Assembly (NCBI GenBank): GCA_013152485.1
Contig: JAADGG010000050.1
Span: forward strand, 74,090-107,889
Length of the DNA: 33,800 nt
Origin: Nitrospirota bacterium
GTDB taxonomy: Bacteria > Nitrospirota > Thermodesulfovibrionia > Thermodesulfovibrionales > JdFR-85
Direction: 5' to 3'
The notes beneath the pieces are model-generated. The model worked only from the letters and a program-made list of their open reading frames with translations. It had not been told where the DNA came from and did no database searches. The translations under genes were made by a program, and so were the position numbers. Shown here in pieces: positions 18,447-25,164 of the stretch (positions are counted from its first letter, which is position 1; the number at the start of each line of letters is the position of its first letter).

Positions 18447-18475
18447 TTGAAAAAAAAGGCCCTTTGTGTTAAGTT
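18447..18475 (+). promoter_or_regulatory. Possible promoter for the YeiH/sensor operon
   Basis: TTGAAA (18447-18452), a 17-bp spacer and TAAGTT (18470-18475), with an expected start near 18482. That is just before ATG 18484. The -10 match is weak. Confidence 0.35.
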
Positions 18476-18483
18476 TAAGGGTA

Positions 18484-19425
18484 ATGTTAAGGAAACTCTC
18501 AGGCCTGATCATATCCGTGGTTATTGCCGTTATTGCCTTCATTCTCTCATATGTGCATCCCTCGTTCGAAGCACTGGCGATATCGATAATACTCGGCATG
18601 CTGTTCTCCAACATCCTGCAGGACAGGCAGTTCCTGAATGACGGGATAGAGCTCACGATCAAGGTATTCCTGCCGGTGGGAATAGCGCTGTACGGGACAC
18701 AGCTGTCCATAAGGTCGCTCGATCCCGCGATGACCCCCCTCGTGTTCCTCACCTTCATTGCCGTCTTCAGCCTCGTCTATCTTGTTTCGAAGTGGTCCGG
18801 CCTGAAAAACAATATCGGAATACTCCTTGCCACTGGGATATCGATCTGCGGGGCCTCTGCAATCGCAATCGTCTCTCCCCTTATAAAGTCGGACGGGGAG
18901 GAGACCTCCATATCCCTGATAGTCGTGATGATCTACGGCCTGTTCGGGATGATAGCCTATCCATTGCTCGCGAACTTTCTCGATCTCGGCATGAAGGAAT
19001 TCGCGTTCGTCTCAGGGACGACACTGCCGATGATCGGACAGATAAAGGTGGCGGCATCGGCCTACGGGACTGAATGCGTAACCACGGCCCTCAAGTACAA
19101 ACTGCTGCGGATGTCCTTTCTGGTCTTCCTTGTAACCCTCACGCTCTTCCTCTCCAGGAAGGAGGACCGTCGTATATACATACCCTGGTTCATAGCCGTA
19201 TTCGTCCTTCTCGCCCTCGTCGTGAACATATTCAGGTTGGACCGGCTTTCGGAGATCTCCGCACCCGTCAGCCGTTTCTCCCTCTCCACGGCACTGGCCG
19301 CAATCGGCTTGTCGGTCGACTTCGAGTCCATTACCGAGGAAGGGATCAAGCCCCTGATAATAGTGGTACTGTCAATAGCTGCCATCCTGTCAGCCCAGTT
19401 CCTGATCTTCCGTGTAATAATGTAA
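18484..19425 (+). CDS. YeiH-family (UPF0324) membrane transporter
   Basis: A putative inner-membrane anion or sulfonate exporter of the YeiH/UPF0324 family, with about ten hydrophobic helices over 313 residues. Recognised by NDGIELTIKVFLPVGIALYG, the ISICGASAIAIVSPLIKS motif, GTTLPMIGQIKVAA, and a repeated second half ending ALAAIGLSVDFESITEEGIKPL. The start may be ATG 18484, where the possible promoter points, or GTG 18466 six codons earlier; neither has a clear ribosome site. It lies 16 nt upstream of a large sensor kinase, an unusual partner, since E. coli yeiH sits near a LysR regulator. The substrate is not known. Confidence 0.85.
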   Translation: MLRKLSGLIISVVIAVIAFILSYVHPSFEALAISIILGMLFSNILQDRQFLNDGIELTIKVFLPVGIALYGTQLSIRSLDPAMTPLVFLTFIAVFSLVYLVSKWSGLKNNIGILLATGISICGASAIAIVSPLIKSDGEETSISLIVVMIYGLFGMIAYPLLANFLDLGMKEFAFVSGTTLPMIGQIKVAASAYGTECVTTALKYKLLRMSFLVFLVTLTLFLSRKEDRRIYIPWFIAVFVLLALVVNIFRLDRLSEISAPVSRFSLSTALAAIGLSVDFESITEEGIKPLIIVVLSIAAILSAQFLIFRVIM

Positions 19426-19441
19426 AGTCTGGGTATTCATA

Positions 19442-22327
19442 ATGTTCAAGACGAAACTGATATATAAGTTCCTCATCAACTTCCTGATTTTCTCGATTGC
19501 ACTCATGCTGCCGCTTTCGTTTTCTCTGCGTAAGGACCTGAAGACGGTGTTTACGAACATGGATGCCCTCATAGCGAAGGACGACCTCGGCGATGCCCGT
19601 GCAATCCAGGAGGAGTTCTTCAGGGAGACGTTCGCACACCTGATGAGTATAGCTTTCTATGCATTCTTCCTCGCCTTCATTCTCGCGCTTTTCTCCTCAA
19701 GGAGGTTCCTCAAGCCCATAAAGGCCCTCTATGCCGGGGCCGAAGCCGTGAAAAAGGGGCGGCTCGACATAAAGATACCGGTCTACACGGAAGACGAACT
19801 CGGAGAGGTCACGGCCATATTCAACGACATGCTCGCCAATCTCAGGACCAAAACAGAGGAGCTGCAGAACAAGGACACGTATGTGAAGACCATGATGGAT
19901 GCACTATGGGTGGTCGACAAGAACGACATGGTCATCGACGTAAACCCGGCCTTCACAAAAATGTTCGGTTACGAACGCGACCAGGTAGTGGGTTCATCGA
20001 TTTACGACTTTCTCGACGCAGAGAACGCAATGATAATGAAGAGGGAGCTCGGATTGAAGAGACAGAGGGGGGAACACTCCACGTACGAGATCAACATCAC
20101 CGCCAAAGACGGCTCCCAGATCCCGGTGCTCATCACCGGAGCCCCCATAATCAGGAAAGGCGAAATCATCGGCAAGATCGGCATCATAAAGGACTTCAGG
20201 GAACAGGCGAAGCTGGTCAGGGAGCTGAAGGAGTCGAGGGACTACCTCGAAACCGTCATGAACAGCATAGAAGACTCGATCCTGATAATAAATACCGACT
20301 ACAGGATCCTCAAGGCCAATGTCGCGGCACTCACCAGATACGGAGACGGCATTACCGGAAAGAAGTGCTACGAGATAACCCACAACTCTTTCAGGCCCTG
20401 CTGGATGGAAGGCGAGGACTGCCCCATTCAGGGGGTCTTCACCACGGGCGGTACGTGGAAGACGATACACGAGCATTATGACGAAAGCGGAGCAAAGCGT
20501 TATGCAGAGGTCATAGCATCCCCGATCAGGGACTCCGAGGGCAGGATCGTAGAGGCCCTTGAGGTCATGAGGGACGTAACAGAACGGATGATGCACATGG
20601 ACGAGATAAAGAGGAGAAACAGGGAGCTGGTCCTCCTCAATTCCATCGCTTCCATCATAAACCAGTCTCTGAAGGCGGAGGAGATATTCTCCAGCGTGAT
20701 AGACAGGCTCTTGGAGGCGCTCGATATGGACGGCGGCTGTGTATTCATCATAGACGAGGCGACCCGAACCCTCGAATGCTCGTGTCAGAGAGGGAAAGCC
20801 GAGCAGTGTACTTCAAAGGCCGTGAGGGTGAAACTCGGTGACGACATTCCCGGAAGGGTCGCTGTTACCGGTGAGGTGATGACCTCGTCGAACCTCGGCT
20901 CCGACAGCAGGGTCTCCGTCTCCGTGTTCAAGGACACGAAGGTAAAGGGCTATTGCTGCATCCCCGTAACCGGCAAAGACCGCATCCTCGGCGTATACTG
21001 CCTGTTCAAGCTCAAGGAACACTTCTTTACGAGCGAGGAAGAGAAGATATTGCGCGCAGTGGGTGAAATGACCGGGCTCGCACTCGAAAACAGCAGACTG
21101 TATGAAGAGATGAGAAGCATGTTCGAGACACAGAAGAGCCGGCGGCTTCAGGAGCAGCGGGACCTCATCGAGCTGTCCTCGAAACTCACGTCCGCAAGAA
21201 ACATCGACGAGGTCATCCACGGTACGGCCTCCCACATAAAGGCATATCTCGGCTCTGACGCCGTCCTCTTCTGGAGGAAGAAGGACGAGGGATCACTCGC
21301 CCTGATATATTCTTCAGGACTCGAGCCGCAAACCGGCACCCTGAGGACGGATATGCCGTCCACAGAGGCCTACGCTGCCGTCAAGGGTATGCACGTGTGC
21401 ATTCAGGACATCAACACCGATGAGCGTTTCCATTTCACGGACGACCTGAAAAAAACGGGCATCAGGTCGGTCCTGTCAATGCCCGTAATGGTCGGAGACG
21501 ACATCCTCGGCGTCTTCACTTCCATGTCTAGGACCCCCAGGCAGTACCGTGATGACGAGATACACTTTATACGCATAATATCCAGCATCTTCGGCGTGGC
21601 ACTGGAAAGGAGCCAGCTCTCTGAAAAGCGTGAGATGGACCGGATGAAGACCGACATAATCAGCTCCGTCTCCTACGAGCTGAGGACCCCCCTGTCGGCG
21701 ATCGTCGGCCTGACAGAGATGCTCATGGACGGGGAGATAGAAGGGACAAGGGCGGGAAAATACCTTGAGACGATCTACGCCGAAGGAATGAGGCTCTCCG
21801 ACATGGTCTCCGACCTGCTTAACATCTCAAGGCTCGAAAGCGGCGAGGAACCGATACGGTTCAGCAACGTCGATTTCTCCGAGATGGTCGAGTCGGTGAG
21901 AAGGTCCCTCGACGCCATCATCGAAGAGAAGCACATCACCCTCCTTACAGAGGTCGACCCTGACGTAAAGGGATTTCACGGCGACAGGGAGAGGCTCCGG
22001 CAACTCCTCTTCAATCTCGTCGACAATGCCGCCAGGTACTCCGACGAAGGCTGCTACATAAATCTGAAGGTAAGATATTCAGAAGAATATGTTATACTTG
22101 AAGTATCCGACACGGGATGGGGGATTCCGGAGAGGGACATTCCAAACCTGGGAAAGCGATTCTACAGAGGAGATCATGGCAGCAGGACCAAGGGCACCGG
22201 TCTCGGGCTCGCCCTGTGCAGGGAGATCGTGCGGATACACCTTGGAAGCATCGAGATCAAAAGCAGGTTAAACAAAGGAACAACCGTTATTGTCACCCTT
22301 CCTTACAGGAGACTGAAAGATGCCTAA
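19442..22327 (+). CDS. Membrane sensor histidine kinase, HAMP-PAS-PAS-GAF-GAF-HisKA-HATPase, with Tyr in place of the phosphoacceptor His
   Basis: A 961-residue sensor. Two membrane helices (about 10-30 and 66-86) enclose a short periplasmic loop. HAMP follows (about 87-140), then two PAS (150-255, 270-385), two GAF (400-560, 575-735), a HisKA dimerisation domain (735-800) and a HATPase (845-955). The ATPase boxes look functional: NLVDNAARYS, DTGWGIP and GTGLGLAL. The H-box reads SVSYELRTPL, so Tyr745 (TAC at 21674-21676) replaces the His that is normally phosphorylated. DivL of Caulobacter has the same change. The protein may be a pseudokinase, a phosphatase or an allosteric partner (inference). 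The second PAS carries C309, C320 and C327. A receiver and an HD-GYP gene follow with overlaps. Confidence 0.94.
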   Translation: MFKTKLIYKFLINFLIFSIALMLPLSFSLRKDLKTVFTNMDALIAKDDLGDARAIQEEFFRETFAHLMSIAFYAFFLAFILALFSSRRFLKPIKALYAGAEAVKKGRLDIKIPVYTEDELGEVTAIFNDMLANLRTKTEELQNKDTYVKTMMDALWVVDKNDMVIDVNPAFTKMFGYERDQVVGSSIYDFLDAENAMIMKRELGLKRQRGEHSTYEINITAKDGSQIPVLITGAPIIRKGEIIGKIGIIKDFREQAKLVRELKESRDYLETVMNSIEDSILIINTDYRILKANVAALTRYGDGITGKKCYEITHNSFRPCWMEGEDCPIQGVFTTGGTWKTIHEHYDESGAKRYAEVIASPIRDSEGRIVEALEVMRDVTERMMHMDEIKRRNRELVLLNSIASIINQSLKAEEIFSSVIDRLLEALDMDGGCVFIIDEATRTLECSCQRGKAEQCTSKAVRVKLGDDIPGRVAVTGEVMTSSNLGSDSRVSVSVFKDTKVKGYCCIPVTGKDRILGVYCLFKLKEHFFTSEEEKILRAVGEMTGLALENSRLYEEMRSMFETQKSRRLQEQRDLIELSSKLTSARNIDEVIHGTASHIKAYLGSDAVLFWRKKDEGSLALIYSSGLEPQTGTLRTDMPSTEAYAAVKGMHVCIQDINTDERFHFTDDLKKTGIRSVLSMPVMVGDDILGVFTSMSRTPRQYRDDEIHFIRIISSIFGVALERSQLSEKREMDRMKTDIISSVSYELRTPLSAIVGLTEMLMDGEIEGTRAGKYLETIYAEGMRLSDMVSDLLNISRLESGEEPIRFSNVDFSEMVESVRRSLDAIIEEKHITLLTEVDPDVKGFHGDRERLRQLLFNLVDNAARYSDEGCYINLKVRYSEEYVILEVSDTGWGIPERDIPNLGKRFYRGDHGSRTKGTGLGLALCREIVRIHLGSIEIKSRLNKGTTVIVTLPYRRLKDA

Positions 22328-22688
22328 AGTGATGGTAATCGACGATGAACCGTTTATCTTGATGATGATCGAGGACAAGCTGAGGCGTGGGGGGCTTGAT
22401 GTGGTCACGCTGAGAGAGAGCAAGAACGCCGTCGAAGTGATTCGGAGGGAGAAGCCGGACCTGATAATTCTCGACTGGATGATGCCTGAAATCAGCGGGA
22501 TAAACATCTGCAAGACGATAAAGACCGACCCCGATCTCTCGAGAATACCGGTCTTCATGTTGACGGCAAAGGGACAGGAAGACGACGAAAAGCTTGGAAT
22601 AAGCTGTGGCGTCGACCGCTACATAACAAAGCCCTTCAGCCCGAGAATCCTGCTGGAGTTGGTGCTTGAGCAACTTGGAAGCAGATAG
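22320..22688 (+). CDS. Single-domain response regulator (CheY-like receiver)
   Basis: A 122-residue receiver domain with no output domain. The phosphorylation site is complete: D8-D9, phosphoacceptor D52 in IILDWMMP, T82 and K104 in TKPFSP. It overlaps the sensor gene by 8 nt and has AGGAG 8 nt before its ATG. It also overlaps the HD-GYP gene by 23 nt. It therefore most likely relays a signal between its two neighbours. As the adjacent sensor lacks the usual His, its phosphodonor may be another kinase (inference). Confidence 0.94.
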   Translation: MPKVMVIDDEPFILMMIEDKLRRGGLDVVTLRESKNAVEVIRREKPDLIILDWMMPEISGINICKTIKTDPDLSRIPVFMLTAKGQEDDEKLGISCGVDRYITKPFSPRILLELVLEQLGSR

Positions 22689-23799
22689 GATAAAGGAAGA
22701 CCTCAAAGCCACGGTAACCGAGTTGAGCGACACATACGAAGAGCTGTCCCTCCTGTACAGGCTCTCCGAAGAGTTCACAGGACTCGGCGTCGACGGGATA
22801 TGCCGTCTGCTTCTCCAGAAGGCCGTATCGTTGCTCGGCATAAAGACCGGGGCCATACTCTTCCTGGACTCAGACTCCGGACGTCTGTATACACGGGCGT
22901 ATACCGGCAGATGGAAAGCGGACACATCCTTCAAGAAAGAGGACAGCATACTCTGGCGGGCGATCCTGTCGAACAAGGCGATCACCGTCTGCAACCACAA
23001 CACCCACAGAGAGAGACTGGAAAGGATCAGTTGCGATTCCCTCCTGATAATCCCTCTGAACGGCAAGAAACAGACCATAGGCGTATTCCTGGTTGCAGAC
23101 AAGGCGGACGGAAGGGAGTTCTACTCGGGAGACATGAAGCTGCTTACCACCATCGCCTCGCAGGCTGCACTCTTTATCGAAAACGCCCTGCTGACTCAGG
23201 AGATGCAGACCTTTCTGATAGAGACCATCAGGTCGTTCGTAAAGGCCCTCGAGGCCTCGTCCCTATGGACCGCAGGGCATACGGAGAGGGTGACACGCTA
23301 TGCATTGTCCATTGCCGAGCTGCTCCGCCTCGATGCCCACGAGATAGAGAAACTTAGGATCAGCAGCCTCCTGCATGACATAGGCAAGATCGCCACCCCG
23401 AAAGAGATACTGAACAAAAACGGCAAACTGGACGACTCGGAGTGGTCCGAGATAAGGCGTCATCCGATCGTCGGTGCAGAGATACTCTCTGGACTGAGCA
23501 GCTTCAGGGAAGTCATCGAGTGCATAAGGTACCACCATGAACACTTCGACGGCACAGGCATTCACGGTCTCTGCGGCGGGGACATACCGCTCATGGCGAG
23601 GATCCTCGCTGTTGCGGATGCCTTTGATGCAATGACCTCCGACAGGCCTTACCGGAAGAAGAAGTCAATCGAAGAGACGATCGATGAAATACTGGACTGT
23701 GCAGGCAGGCAGTTCGATCCGGTGGTGGTACGGGCATGCATAGAGTGGCTCAAGTCACCCGACTACATTGTACCTCCTGAGCCTGAAGCCCGCGCCTAA
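22666..23799 (+). CDS. GAF/HD-GYP domain protein, putative c-di-GMP phosphodiesterase with altered GYP motif
   Basis: A 377-residue cytosolic protein: a short helix (1-30), a GAF sensor (about 35-190) and an HD-GYP domain (about 195-370). HD-GYP enzymes hydrolyse c-di-GMP. The metal-binding His237-Asp238 (LLHDIGK) and HHE (290-292) are present, as is DAFDAMTSDRPYR. The GYP loop reads DGTGIHGL (295-302) instead of DGxGYPxGL, with a change and one residue missing, so activity or partner binding may be altered. The start is TTG 22666, with GGAG 7 nt upstream, inside the receiver gene. The last 45 nt overlap the convergent TatD/radical-SAM gene. Confidence 0.92.
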   Translation: MSNLEADRIKEDLKATVTELSDTYEELSLLYRLSEEFTGLGVDGICRLLLQKAVSLLGIKTGAILFLDSDSGRLYTRAYTGRWKADTSFKKEDSILWRAILSNKAITVCNHNTHRERLERISCDSLLIIPLNGKKQTIGVFLVADKADGREFYSGDMKLLTTIASQAALFIENALLTQEMQTFLIETIRSFVKALEASSLWTAGHTERVTRYALSIAELLRLDAHEIEKLRISSLLHDIGKIATPKEILNKNGKLDDSEWSEIRRHPIVGAEILSGLSSFREVIECIRYHHEHFDGTGIHGLCGGDIPLMARILAVADAFDAMTSDRPYRKKKSIEETIDEILDCAGRQFDPVVVRACIEWLKSPDYIVPPEPEARA

Positions 23800-25164
23800 T
23801 TCACGGGCGATCTCCTCACACCTCTCCACGTCGACCCCGGGGGCATCGACGACCGTTACGGTCACATCCGGTATGTATTTCACGGCCTCCTTCACAAAGG
23901 CTATGACGCCACTGTAGGCACCATTCAGGGACGGCTTGCAAACGGCCGTGTAGGTCTCCTCATCCTGAGCATCGAGGCTTATCGACATGGAATCGACCAT
24001 TCCCGCAAGTTCGGGCAGTATATTCCTGCCGTAGATGAGGTTTCCGTGACCATTGGTGTTTATCCTCACTCTGCCTCCCCTCTCCTTTATCCATGCCGCC
24101 AGGGCCTTTACGAGGTCGAGCCGCAGCAGGGGCTCGCCGTATCCGCAGAATACCACCTCCCTGTATTCGGAAGGATCACCTATGGCCTCCTTCAGCTCGG
24201 AGAGATCCGGCTCGTGGCCGAGTCTCAGGTTATGGCCCTTTACATAGTCGGAGTGGAACCTGATGCAGAAAGAACACGCATTGGTACACCTGTTAGTGAT
24301 ATTCAGATAGAGGGAATCCCTGATCTTGTAGGCGATCTTTCCCTCTCGGGGATATCGTCCTATACCGAATAGTCTCCCTGCATTCAATGTTGTGATCCTT
24401 GCTATGTCGTCGACCGATACACCCCTGAGCTCTGCAAGTTTCCGGGCTGTATGAAGCAGAAACGACGGTTCGTTTCTTTTGCCCCTCAGGGGAACAGGTG
24501 TGAGGTAGGGGGCGTCGGTCTCGATCAGCAAGTATTCATCGGGTATGGACGACGCCGTCTCCTGAAGACTCCTTGCGTTCTTGAACGTCACGGGACCGGC
24601 AAACGAGACGTACAGGCCCATCGCCATCACCTGCTCGGCCATCTCCATGTCTCCGGAAAAACAGTGCATGACACCGCGGCTGACGCCCGACGCAGAAAGG
24701 ATCTTCAGTGTATCAGCCTTCGCGTCTCTAGAATGTATTATAACGGGCAGCCCGAGTTCGAGCGCGAGATCGAGATGTTTCTCGAACACCCTCCGCTGTA
24801 TATCCCTCGGAGAGTGATCATAATGGTAGTCGAGACCGGTCTCACCGATTGCAACGACCTTCTCCTCTCTCGACCATATCCTTATCCTCTCTGCCGCCTC
24901 CGGGGCATAGTCCCTTGCATCATGGGGATGTATACCTACGGATGCATAGACGAAGTCGTACTTTCCCGCCAGCATCACCGCCTTTTCAGAGCCCTCCAGG
25001 TCAGACCCGACGGTGACGATCGCCGCGATACCGGCATTCCTCGCCCTCTCCATGACGCCGTCCCTGTCCGGGTCGAAAGCCGACATCTCGAGGTGGCAGT
25101 GCGTGTCTATCAGTGGTCGGTTGTTTTCTGCTGACGGCCGGTTCTTGTCCATCGAAAGATTCAT
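23755..25164 (-). CDS. TatD-family metal hydrolase fused to a radical SAM domain
   Basis: A 469-residue two-domain protein. The N-terminal part is a complete TatD nuclease-like amidohydrolase: DTHCHLE (H22, H24), GETGLDYHYD, IIHSRDA, MHCFSGD and IETDAPYLTP. The C-terminal part, from about residue 285, is a radical SAM domain with C293-x3-C297-x2-C300 (TNRCTNACSFC) for the 4Fe-4S cluster. CGYGEPLLR and SISLDAQDEETY follow. The two families are known as neighbours or fusions (TatD-associated radical SAM family). The product of the SAM reaction is unknown. The gene is third in an operon with phosphoglycerate mutase, 40 nt upstream, and its end overlaps the HD-GYP gene. No frameshift is needed, so the fusion looks genuine. 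Confidence 0.92.
   Translation of the reverse strand: MNLSMDKNRPSAENNRPLIDTHCHLEMSAFDPDRDGVMERARNAGIAAIVTVGSDLEGSEKAVMLAGKYDFVYASVGIHPHDARDYAPEAAERIRIWSREEKVVAIGETGLDYHYDHSPRDIQRRVFEKHLDLALELGLPVIIHSRDAKADTLKILSASGVSRGVMHCFSGDMEMAEQVMAMGLYVSFAGPVTFKNARSLQETASSIPDEYLLIETDAPYLTPVPLRGKRNEPSFLLHTARKLAELRGVSVDDIARITTLNAGRLFGIGRYPREGKIAYKIRDSLYLNITNRCTNACSFCIRFHSDYVKGHNLRLGHEPDLSELKEAIGDPSEYREVVFCGYGEPLLRLDLVKALAAWIKERGGRVRINTNGHGNLIYGRNILPELAGMVDSMSISLDAQDEETYTAVCKPSLNGAYSGVIAFVKEAVKYIPDVTVTVVDAPGVDVERCEEIARELGAGFRLRRYNVVG

Follow-up and report, generated by a model that had tools for sequence, protein, structure and literature searches.

A Nitrospirota sensor histidine kinase with tyrosine at the phosphoacceptor position, probably kept for a non-kinase role, and repeated catalytic losses among its orthologues

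Is a sensor histidine kinase in which the phosphoacceptor histidine is replaced by tyrosine an artefact, a decaying gene or a protein kept for another purpose? This question is raised by a two-component locus in a Nitrospirota MAG of 2.06 Mb and 96 contigs (G000:C25), from which a stretch of 33,800 nucleotides, referred to here as the window, was analysed. The open reading frame at 19442..22327 on the plus strand reads DRMKTDIISSVSYELRTPLSAIVG around codon 745, and the presence of tyrosine in place of the phosphoacceptor histidine in this 961-residue protein is confirmed as a real observation. The description given in an earlier note was borne out: translation gives the H-box SVSYELRTPL with TAC at 21674-21676; the N, G1, F and G2 boxes of the ATP-binding domain are all present; Pfam finds HAMP, two PAS, two GAF, HisKA and HATPase_c domains, in agreement with the HAMP-PAS2-GAF2 architecture that had been read from the sequence; and the CheY-like receiver next door, at 22320..22688, retains its phosphorylation residues. 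The features of the locus are listed below.

18466..19425, plus strand: YeiH/UPF0324-type membrane protein (Pfam PF03601), first gene of the conserved block and upstream of the kinase in most loci examined
19442..22327, plus strand: Tyr-type sensor (pseudo)histidine kinase, 961 aa (ORF and Pfam; G001 orthologue 82% identical, also with Tyr)
19694..19849, plus strand: HAMP, residues 85-136 (Pfam)
19898..20197, plus strand: PAS1, residues 153-252 (Pfam)
20261..20587, plus strand: PAS2, residues 274-382 (Pfam)
20678..21088, plus strand: GAF1, residues 413-549 (Pfam)
21203..21604, plus strand: GAF2, residues 588-721 (Pfam), the least conserved domain in the Tyr pair
21620..21643, plus strand: putative scar of a missing PAS3 of ~110 aa (ERSQLSEKREMDRMK), from orthologue comparison, with PAS3 of G004 identified by Pfam
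21647..21844, plus strand: HisKA (DHp), residues 736-801 (Pfam, 59 bits against a cut-off of 26.9)
21665..21694, plus strand: H-box SVSYELRTPL, with E746 (H+1) and T749 (H+4) kept
21674..21676, plus strand: Tyr745 codon TAC at the phosphoacceptor position (translation; Tyr in G001 too)
21980..22309, plus strand: HATPase_c, residues 847-956 (Pfam, 98 bits, above the cut-off), all boxes intact
22320..22688, plus strand: single-domain CheY-like receiver (Pfam), its start overlapping the end of the kinase gene, with intact phosphorylation residues
22666..23799, plus strand: GAF-HD (HD-GYP-like) protein whose gene overlaps that of the receiver; HD and HHExxDG retained, GYP reading GIH
23755-25164, minus strand: TatD nuclease-radical SAM fusion, conserved beside the locus across the order

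The window protein possesses the HisKA and HATPase_c domains of an active HisKA sensor kinase and lacks, at Tyr745, the phosphoacceptor histidine of one. Its ATP-binding boxes read NLVDNAARYSD (N), DTGWGIP (G1), RFYRGD (F/lid) and GTGLGLAL (G2), and T749 supplies at H+4 the Thr or Asn that, by sequence, is expected of a HisKA protein with phosphatase and without kinase activity. No alternative histidine is present in the DHp helices of the translated sequence, and so no neighbouring histidine can stand in for Tyr745. Among the other histidine kinases of the same genome, the H-box could be read in 23, and all 23 have histidine at the acceptor position. In L120 (G000:C19), also a histidine kinase of the MAG, glycine follows the acceptor histidine (LAHGVRNPL).

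A recent mutation or a sequencing error had been put forward as a caveat, and an error in sequencing or assembly would account for the TAC codon through one C-to-T difference in a MAG. The nearest orthologue, however, from G001 (isolate HyVt-450; L010/L039/L048), is 82% identical over all 961 residues and also reads SVSYELRTPL; it belongs to a separately assembled species, and dS between the two kinase genes is 0.75. A neighbouring Arg codon differs between the Tyr genes (AGG and AGA), and three derived features, S741, L747 and the loss of PAS3, co-occur with the tyrosine. Both Tyr genomes are MAGs, and the Tyr call rests on their assemblies. The two proteins are sisters with 100/100 support on a 28-row tree. 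Since the tyrosine is common to separate species, lies on one well-supported branch and is accompanied by purifying selection, the caveat of recent mutation falls away and a sequencing error, for which the remaining chance is minute, is excluded for practical purposes.

In the alignment of homologues that had been proposed as a check on the conservation of the tyrosine, the residue is shared by G001, whereas the remaining four members of the six-species genus have histidine on the 28-row tree. The search for further Tyr H-boxes in the phylum was limited to the context YE[LF][RS]TP, which as a DNA pattern gave 47 matches in 45 of 396 Nitrospirota genomes; all were inspected, and only two lie in HisKA domains, namely the window gene and its G001 orthologue. 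The other 45 are chance matches outside HisKA domains. The corresponding His pattern gave 312 matches in 61 relatives, a figure summed per genome from matches that were not inspected singly.

In most other orthologues, with open frames of ~1,060-1,230 codons, GAF2 and HisKA are separated by a third PAS domain; in the G004 protein this PAS3 is found as Pfam PAS_8/PAS_7 at residues 738-848. PAS3 is missing from both Tyr proteins, where the junction LSEKREMDRMK joins the similar coiled-coil stretches LYEKRRIDRG and REKEIDRMK. Given the likeness of the joined stretches, PAS3 is likely to have been removed by an in-frame deletion between them. The tree contains one origin of the tyrosine, and the association of tyrosine with PAS3 loss is therefore a single event.

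The closest precedent for the tyrosine is DivL of Caulobacter and other alphaproteobacteria, which has a Tyr acceptor in an H-box core, VSYELRTPL, identical to that of the window kinase (the H-box of the solved DivL structure, PDB 4q20, reads VGNVSYELRTPLTTIIGYSELLE), and which also shares the HisKA fold, a multi-PAS sensor and a single-domain receiver partner, in that case DivK. The window kinase thus has a non-phosphorylatable acceptor residue, as a DivL should, and both Tyr proteins lack the PAS domain that should directly precede DHp. The two systems differ in that the window kinase is of HAMP-PAS2-GAF2 architecture and has lost its DHp-adjacent PAS, whereas DivL needs its PAS domain for specificity towards the phosphorylated response regulator, and in that the window receiver is co-encoded and has an HD-GYP-like neighbour. 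The identity in YELRTPL is striking; ELRTPL, however, is the usual form in HisKA domains, and the Tyr H-box arose from HEFRTPL. The Tyr pair is nested, with 100/100 support, within His-type Nitrospirota orthologues at a conserved locus, which argues against common descent with DivL; the argument rests on this nesting, DivL itself not being among the tree rows. The window kinase is best regarded as convergent with DivL and not as a DivL, and the term convergent pseudokinase that the earlier note had offered fits a tyrosine that arose within a His-type Nitrospirota family.

DivL is not the best PDB sequence match of the window kinase, and HK853-type chains lead both the sequence and the structure searches. 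The core predicted from a 13-row alignment (mean pLDDT 82) fits DivL about as well as it fits HK853-type kinases, and the model thus shows no more than that the fold is retained. The bifunctional HisKA kinases HK853, CrdS and EnvZ resemble the window kinase in their DHp/CA fold, Glu at H+1, Thr at H+4 and an adjoining cognate receiver; however, the kinase-dead, phosphatase-competent mutants of this type are point mutants, whereas the loss of histidine described here is natural, fixed and combined with the loss of a PAS domain.

Nei-Gojobori counts, taken as point values without confidence limits, give dN/dS of 0.14 for the whole gene, 0.101 for HisKA and 0.104 for HATPase in the Tyr pair, and 0.15, 0.085 and 0.100, respectively, in the His pair G004-G005. 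Identity within the Tyr pair is highest in HATPase (93%) and lowest in GAF2 (72%). In the kinase core, 62 columns are conserved across 26 His orthologues at a level of 90% or higher, and the two Tyr proteins break with this set at just three of them (R741S, H745Y and F747L). The protein therefore has the properties of a pseudo-histidine kinase, in which a catalytic residue is lost and the fold and gene are under purifying selection. On the Tyr stem, the stem/G004 branch ratio is 0.95-1.6 for the kinase domains versus 0.37 for neighbouring genes, and on the two Tyr tips HATPase stands at 0.025 and 0.076 versus 0.082 and 0.102 for the neighbours; these branch rates, from one locus and without a statistical test, suggest a functional shift that may have been followed by renewed constraint. 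The faster kinase on the stem, together with the PAS domain lost on the same branch and one genus left with the sensor part only, could also be read as gene decay, with the kinase on its way out and the tyrosine a passenger of relaxed selection. This explanation is disfavoured and very improbable, as both Tyr frames are open across 961 codons, dN/dS is 0.14 overall and ~0.10 in the core, just three conserved core positions have changed, and the receiver and HD-GYP-like genes are intact.

Orthologues were collected from the order, 54 in total and 53 of them distinct. The acceptor position is His in 49, Tyr in two, Gln in two (G277, G331) and Glu in one (G366); the H+1 position is Glu in 46, Gln in seven and Gly in one; and Thr is found at H+4 in 49. 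Parsimony on a quick 54-row tree, in which G366 forms a long branch, counts three changes at the acceptor, three at H+1 and four at H+4, and eight switches between canonical and non-canonical states in all. The acceptor histidine was lost three independent times, to Tyr, to Gln in two species and to Glu, and the catalytic Glu at H+1 was lost three further times, twice to Gln and once to Gly. The Gln proteins (L162, L163) read VSQEFRDPL and VSQEFKDPV and the Glu protein (L164) reads VSEEFRSPL, each beside an intact receiver and each also with a changed H+4 Thr; the orthology of these diverged proteins is based on sensor similarity and the adjacent receiver, with gene order as a further basis in the case of G277 and G331. 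Gln at H+1 occurs in six genomes of one family (L125, L126, L128, L155, L156, L054) and independently in G285 (L137/L170), and Gly at H+1 occurs in G039 (L173); these H+1 variants are predicted to be kinase-dead and phosphatase-competent. By the yardstick of CrdS, kinase activity should be absent from 13 of the 54 rows, through six independent losses; the H+4 Thr is kept in four of the six, the Gln and Glu types being those in which it is not. In the Gln pair, dN/dS is 0.29 in the kinase core, 0.30 in the sensor and 0.06 in the receiver, and the agreement of core with sensor points to looser constraint on the kinase core. As a control, one PhoR-like kinase family of the same genome has His, Glu and Thr at the three positions in 30 of 30 orthologues across the order. 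His-type Nitrospirota orthologues, from genus to order, resemble the Tyr pair in gene order, in the sensor domains and in the docking helix and receiver; they differ in their HEFRTPL motif and in a further PAS upstream of HisKA, and several sister lineages bear other catalytic losses (HQ, HG, QE..D, EE..S). The several independent catalytic losses in one orthologous gene matter more than the single Tyr substitution; neither these losses nor that of PAS3 had been noticed in the earlier note.

Some loci have departed further. G019 and G060 (L165:6161-8356, L166) encode the sensor half alone, HAMP-PAS-PAS-GAF-GAF-like, and no kinase core was found in either locus; in G019 the frame stops after GAF2, without HisKA, so that an orphan sensor stands with a hisS-like gene on one side and TatD on the other, and no receiver was found near it. 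The same-genus orthologue in G002 (L050:2180-5632) has lost GAF2, has stops in its N-terminal part and an alanine at H+4 (HEFRAPL), and the G002 HD-GYP-like gene lacks the greater part of its HD domain; this is either a degenerate locus or a poor assembly.

The gene order over much of the order Thermodesulfovibrionales is YeiH, kinase, receiver, HD-GYP-like, TatD-radical SAM and phosphoglycerate mutase, although in some families the locus lacks the HD-GYP-like gene. The window receiver keeps DD, D52, T and K, its dN/dS in the Tyr pair is 0.026, and the DD, phosphorylatable Asp, Thr/Ser and Lys residues are kept in 27 of 27 loci read. The receiver-docking helix lies within the DHp stretch RTPLSAIVGLTEMLMDG, which shows no difference between the Tyr proteins and His-type G004, and inspection by eye found no receiver substitutions of the Tyr pair in the docking helix or KPF loop. 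The natural reading is that the Tyr protein would still dock on its receiver. As the GYP signature of the HD-GYP-like protein reads GIH, its hydrolysis of cyclic-di-GMP is uncertain; GIH is also seen in several orthologues.

Because the tyrosine is common to two species and the same gene has suffered several separate catalytic losses, the window protein is probably a kinase-dead sensor histidine kinase that is kept for a non-kinase job. It would still bind ATP and dock on the co-encoded receiver, and would neither autophosphorylate nor pass phosphate to the receiver. Signals received by the HAMP, PAS and GAF domains may set the conformation of the Tyr protein, which would then remove phosphate from the phosphorylated receiver or selectively hold it. 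Another kinase or a small-molecule donor might supply the receiver phosphate, and the target of the receiver may be the HD-GYP-like protein or lie elsewhere. The same genome was searched for a kinase that shares the docking helix and might donate the phosphate; there was no match, and the nearest candidate, L005, has its own receiver.

An active tyrosine autokinase, in which Tyr745 itself would be phosphorylated, is very unlikely. Kinase activity requires the H+1 Glu, which is intact, as is the ATP site, and the PDB title of DivL still reads 'tyrosine kinase'; however, phosphotyrosine is a poor phosphate donor to Asp. Gln or Glu occupies the same site in other lineages, and no autokinase activity of DivL was seen in vitro (PMC4211667). 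As for the non-kinase job, a phosphatase-leaning role is a serious candidate, if somewhat short of an even chance, and is favoured by the retention of Thr749 and by the kinase-disabling changes seen in sister lineages, E-to-Q and E-to-G, which should spare phosphatase activity. In CrdS, E372Q and E372G lose kinase activity and keep phosphatase activity, H371A lowers phosphatase activity without abolishing it, and T/N at H+4 is required for this activity (PMC3510030). Phosphatase data for EnvZ H243Y were not found in the literature searched, in which subscription journals were partly covered. The retained Thr is no proof of phosphatase activity, since DivL, with the H-box YELRTPL, acts neither as a kinase nor as a phosphatase. 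Nor is such activity a feature that the whole family preserves, since the Gln and Glu sisters have changed the H+4 Thr.

The protein may instead resemble DivL in function, without enzymatic activity, using the histidine kinase fold to bind the phosphorylated receiver and to inform another kinase or an effector in a reverse flow of signal; this reader role, at about one chance in three, is nearly as likely as the phosphatase-leaning one, and sequence cannot separate them. DivL steers a second kinase, CckA, and no partner of the CckA kind came to light for the window kinase. DivL, which has neither activity, shields DivK~P from decay (PMC4211667). The same Tyr and the same YELRTPL H-box, a predicted core that superposes on DivL 4q20 with a TM-score of about 0.74-0.78 (one of many histidine kinase matches) and a single-domain receiver as partner, as with DivK, are all consistent with the reader role, as are the Gln/Asp and Glu/Ser sisters, which appear to lack both activities beside intact receivers. 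However, the PAS domain attached to the DivL core confers specificity for DivK~P (PMC5361649), and the DHp-adjacent PAS has been lost in the Tyr lineage; moreover, DivL binds ATP weakly (PMC4211667), whereas the ATP-binding domain is the most conserved part of the window kinase.

Approximately 1% of histidine kinases lack the acceptor histidine, and whether pseudokinases and reversed signal flow occur elsewhere was asked by the authors of the DivL work (PMC5361649). No earlier report on this Nitrospirota kinase family was found in the literature searched, which covered subscription journals in part and is weak evidence of novelty. The locus lies outside Alphaproteobacteria and combines a co-encoded receiver with His-bearing sister species and six independent predicted kinase losses, and the evolution from kinase to pseudokinase is experimentally tractable here because Tyr, Gln, Glu, His-Gln and His types can be compared on closely similar receivers. 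It is tentatively proposed that this Nitrospirota two-component locus has been drifting repeatedly and independently away from phosphotransfer, with the 'kinase' acting as an ATP-gated phosphatase for, or a reader of, a receiver that takes its phosphate from another source. If this is true, loss of the histidine, of the catalytic Glu or of the whole transmitter would be tolerated or favoured at the locus, and systems other than DivL, outside Proteobacteria, would indeed run a reversed or kinase-free flow of signal.
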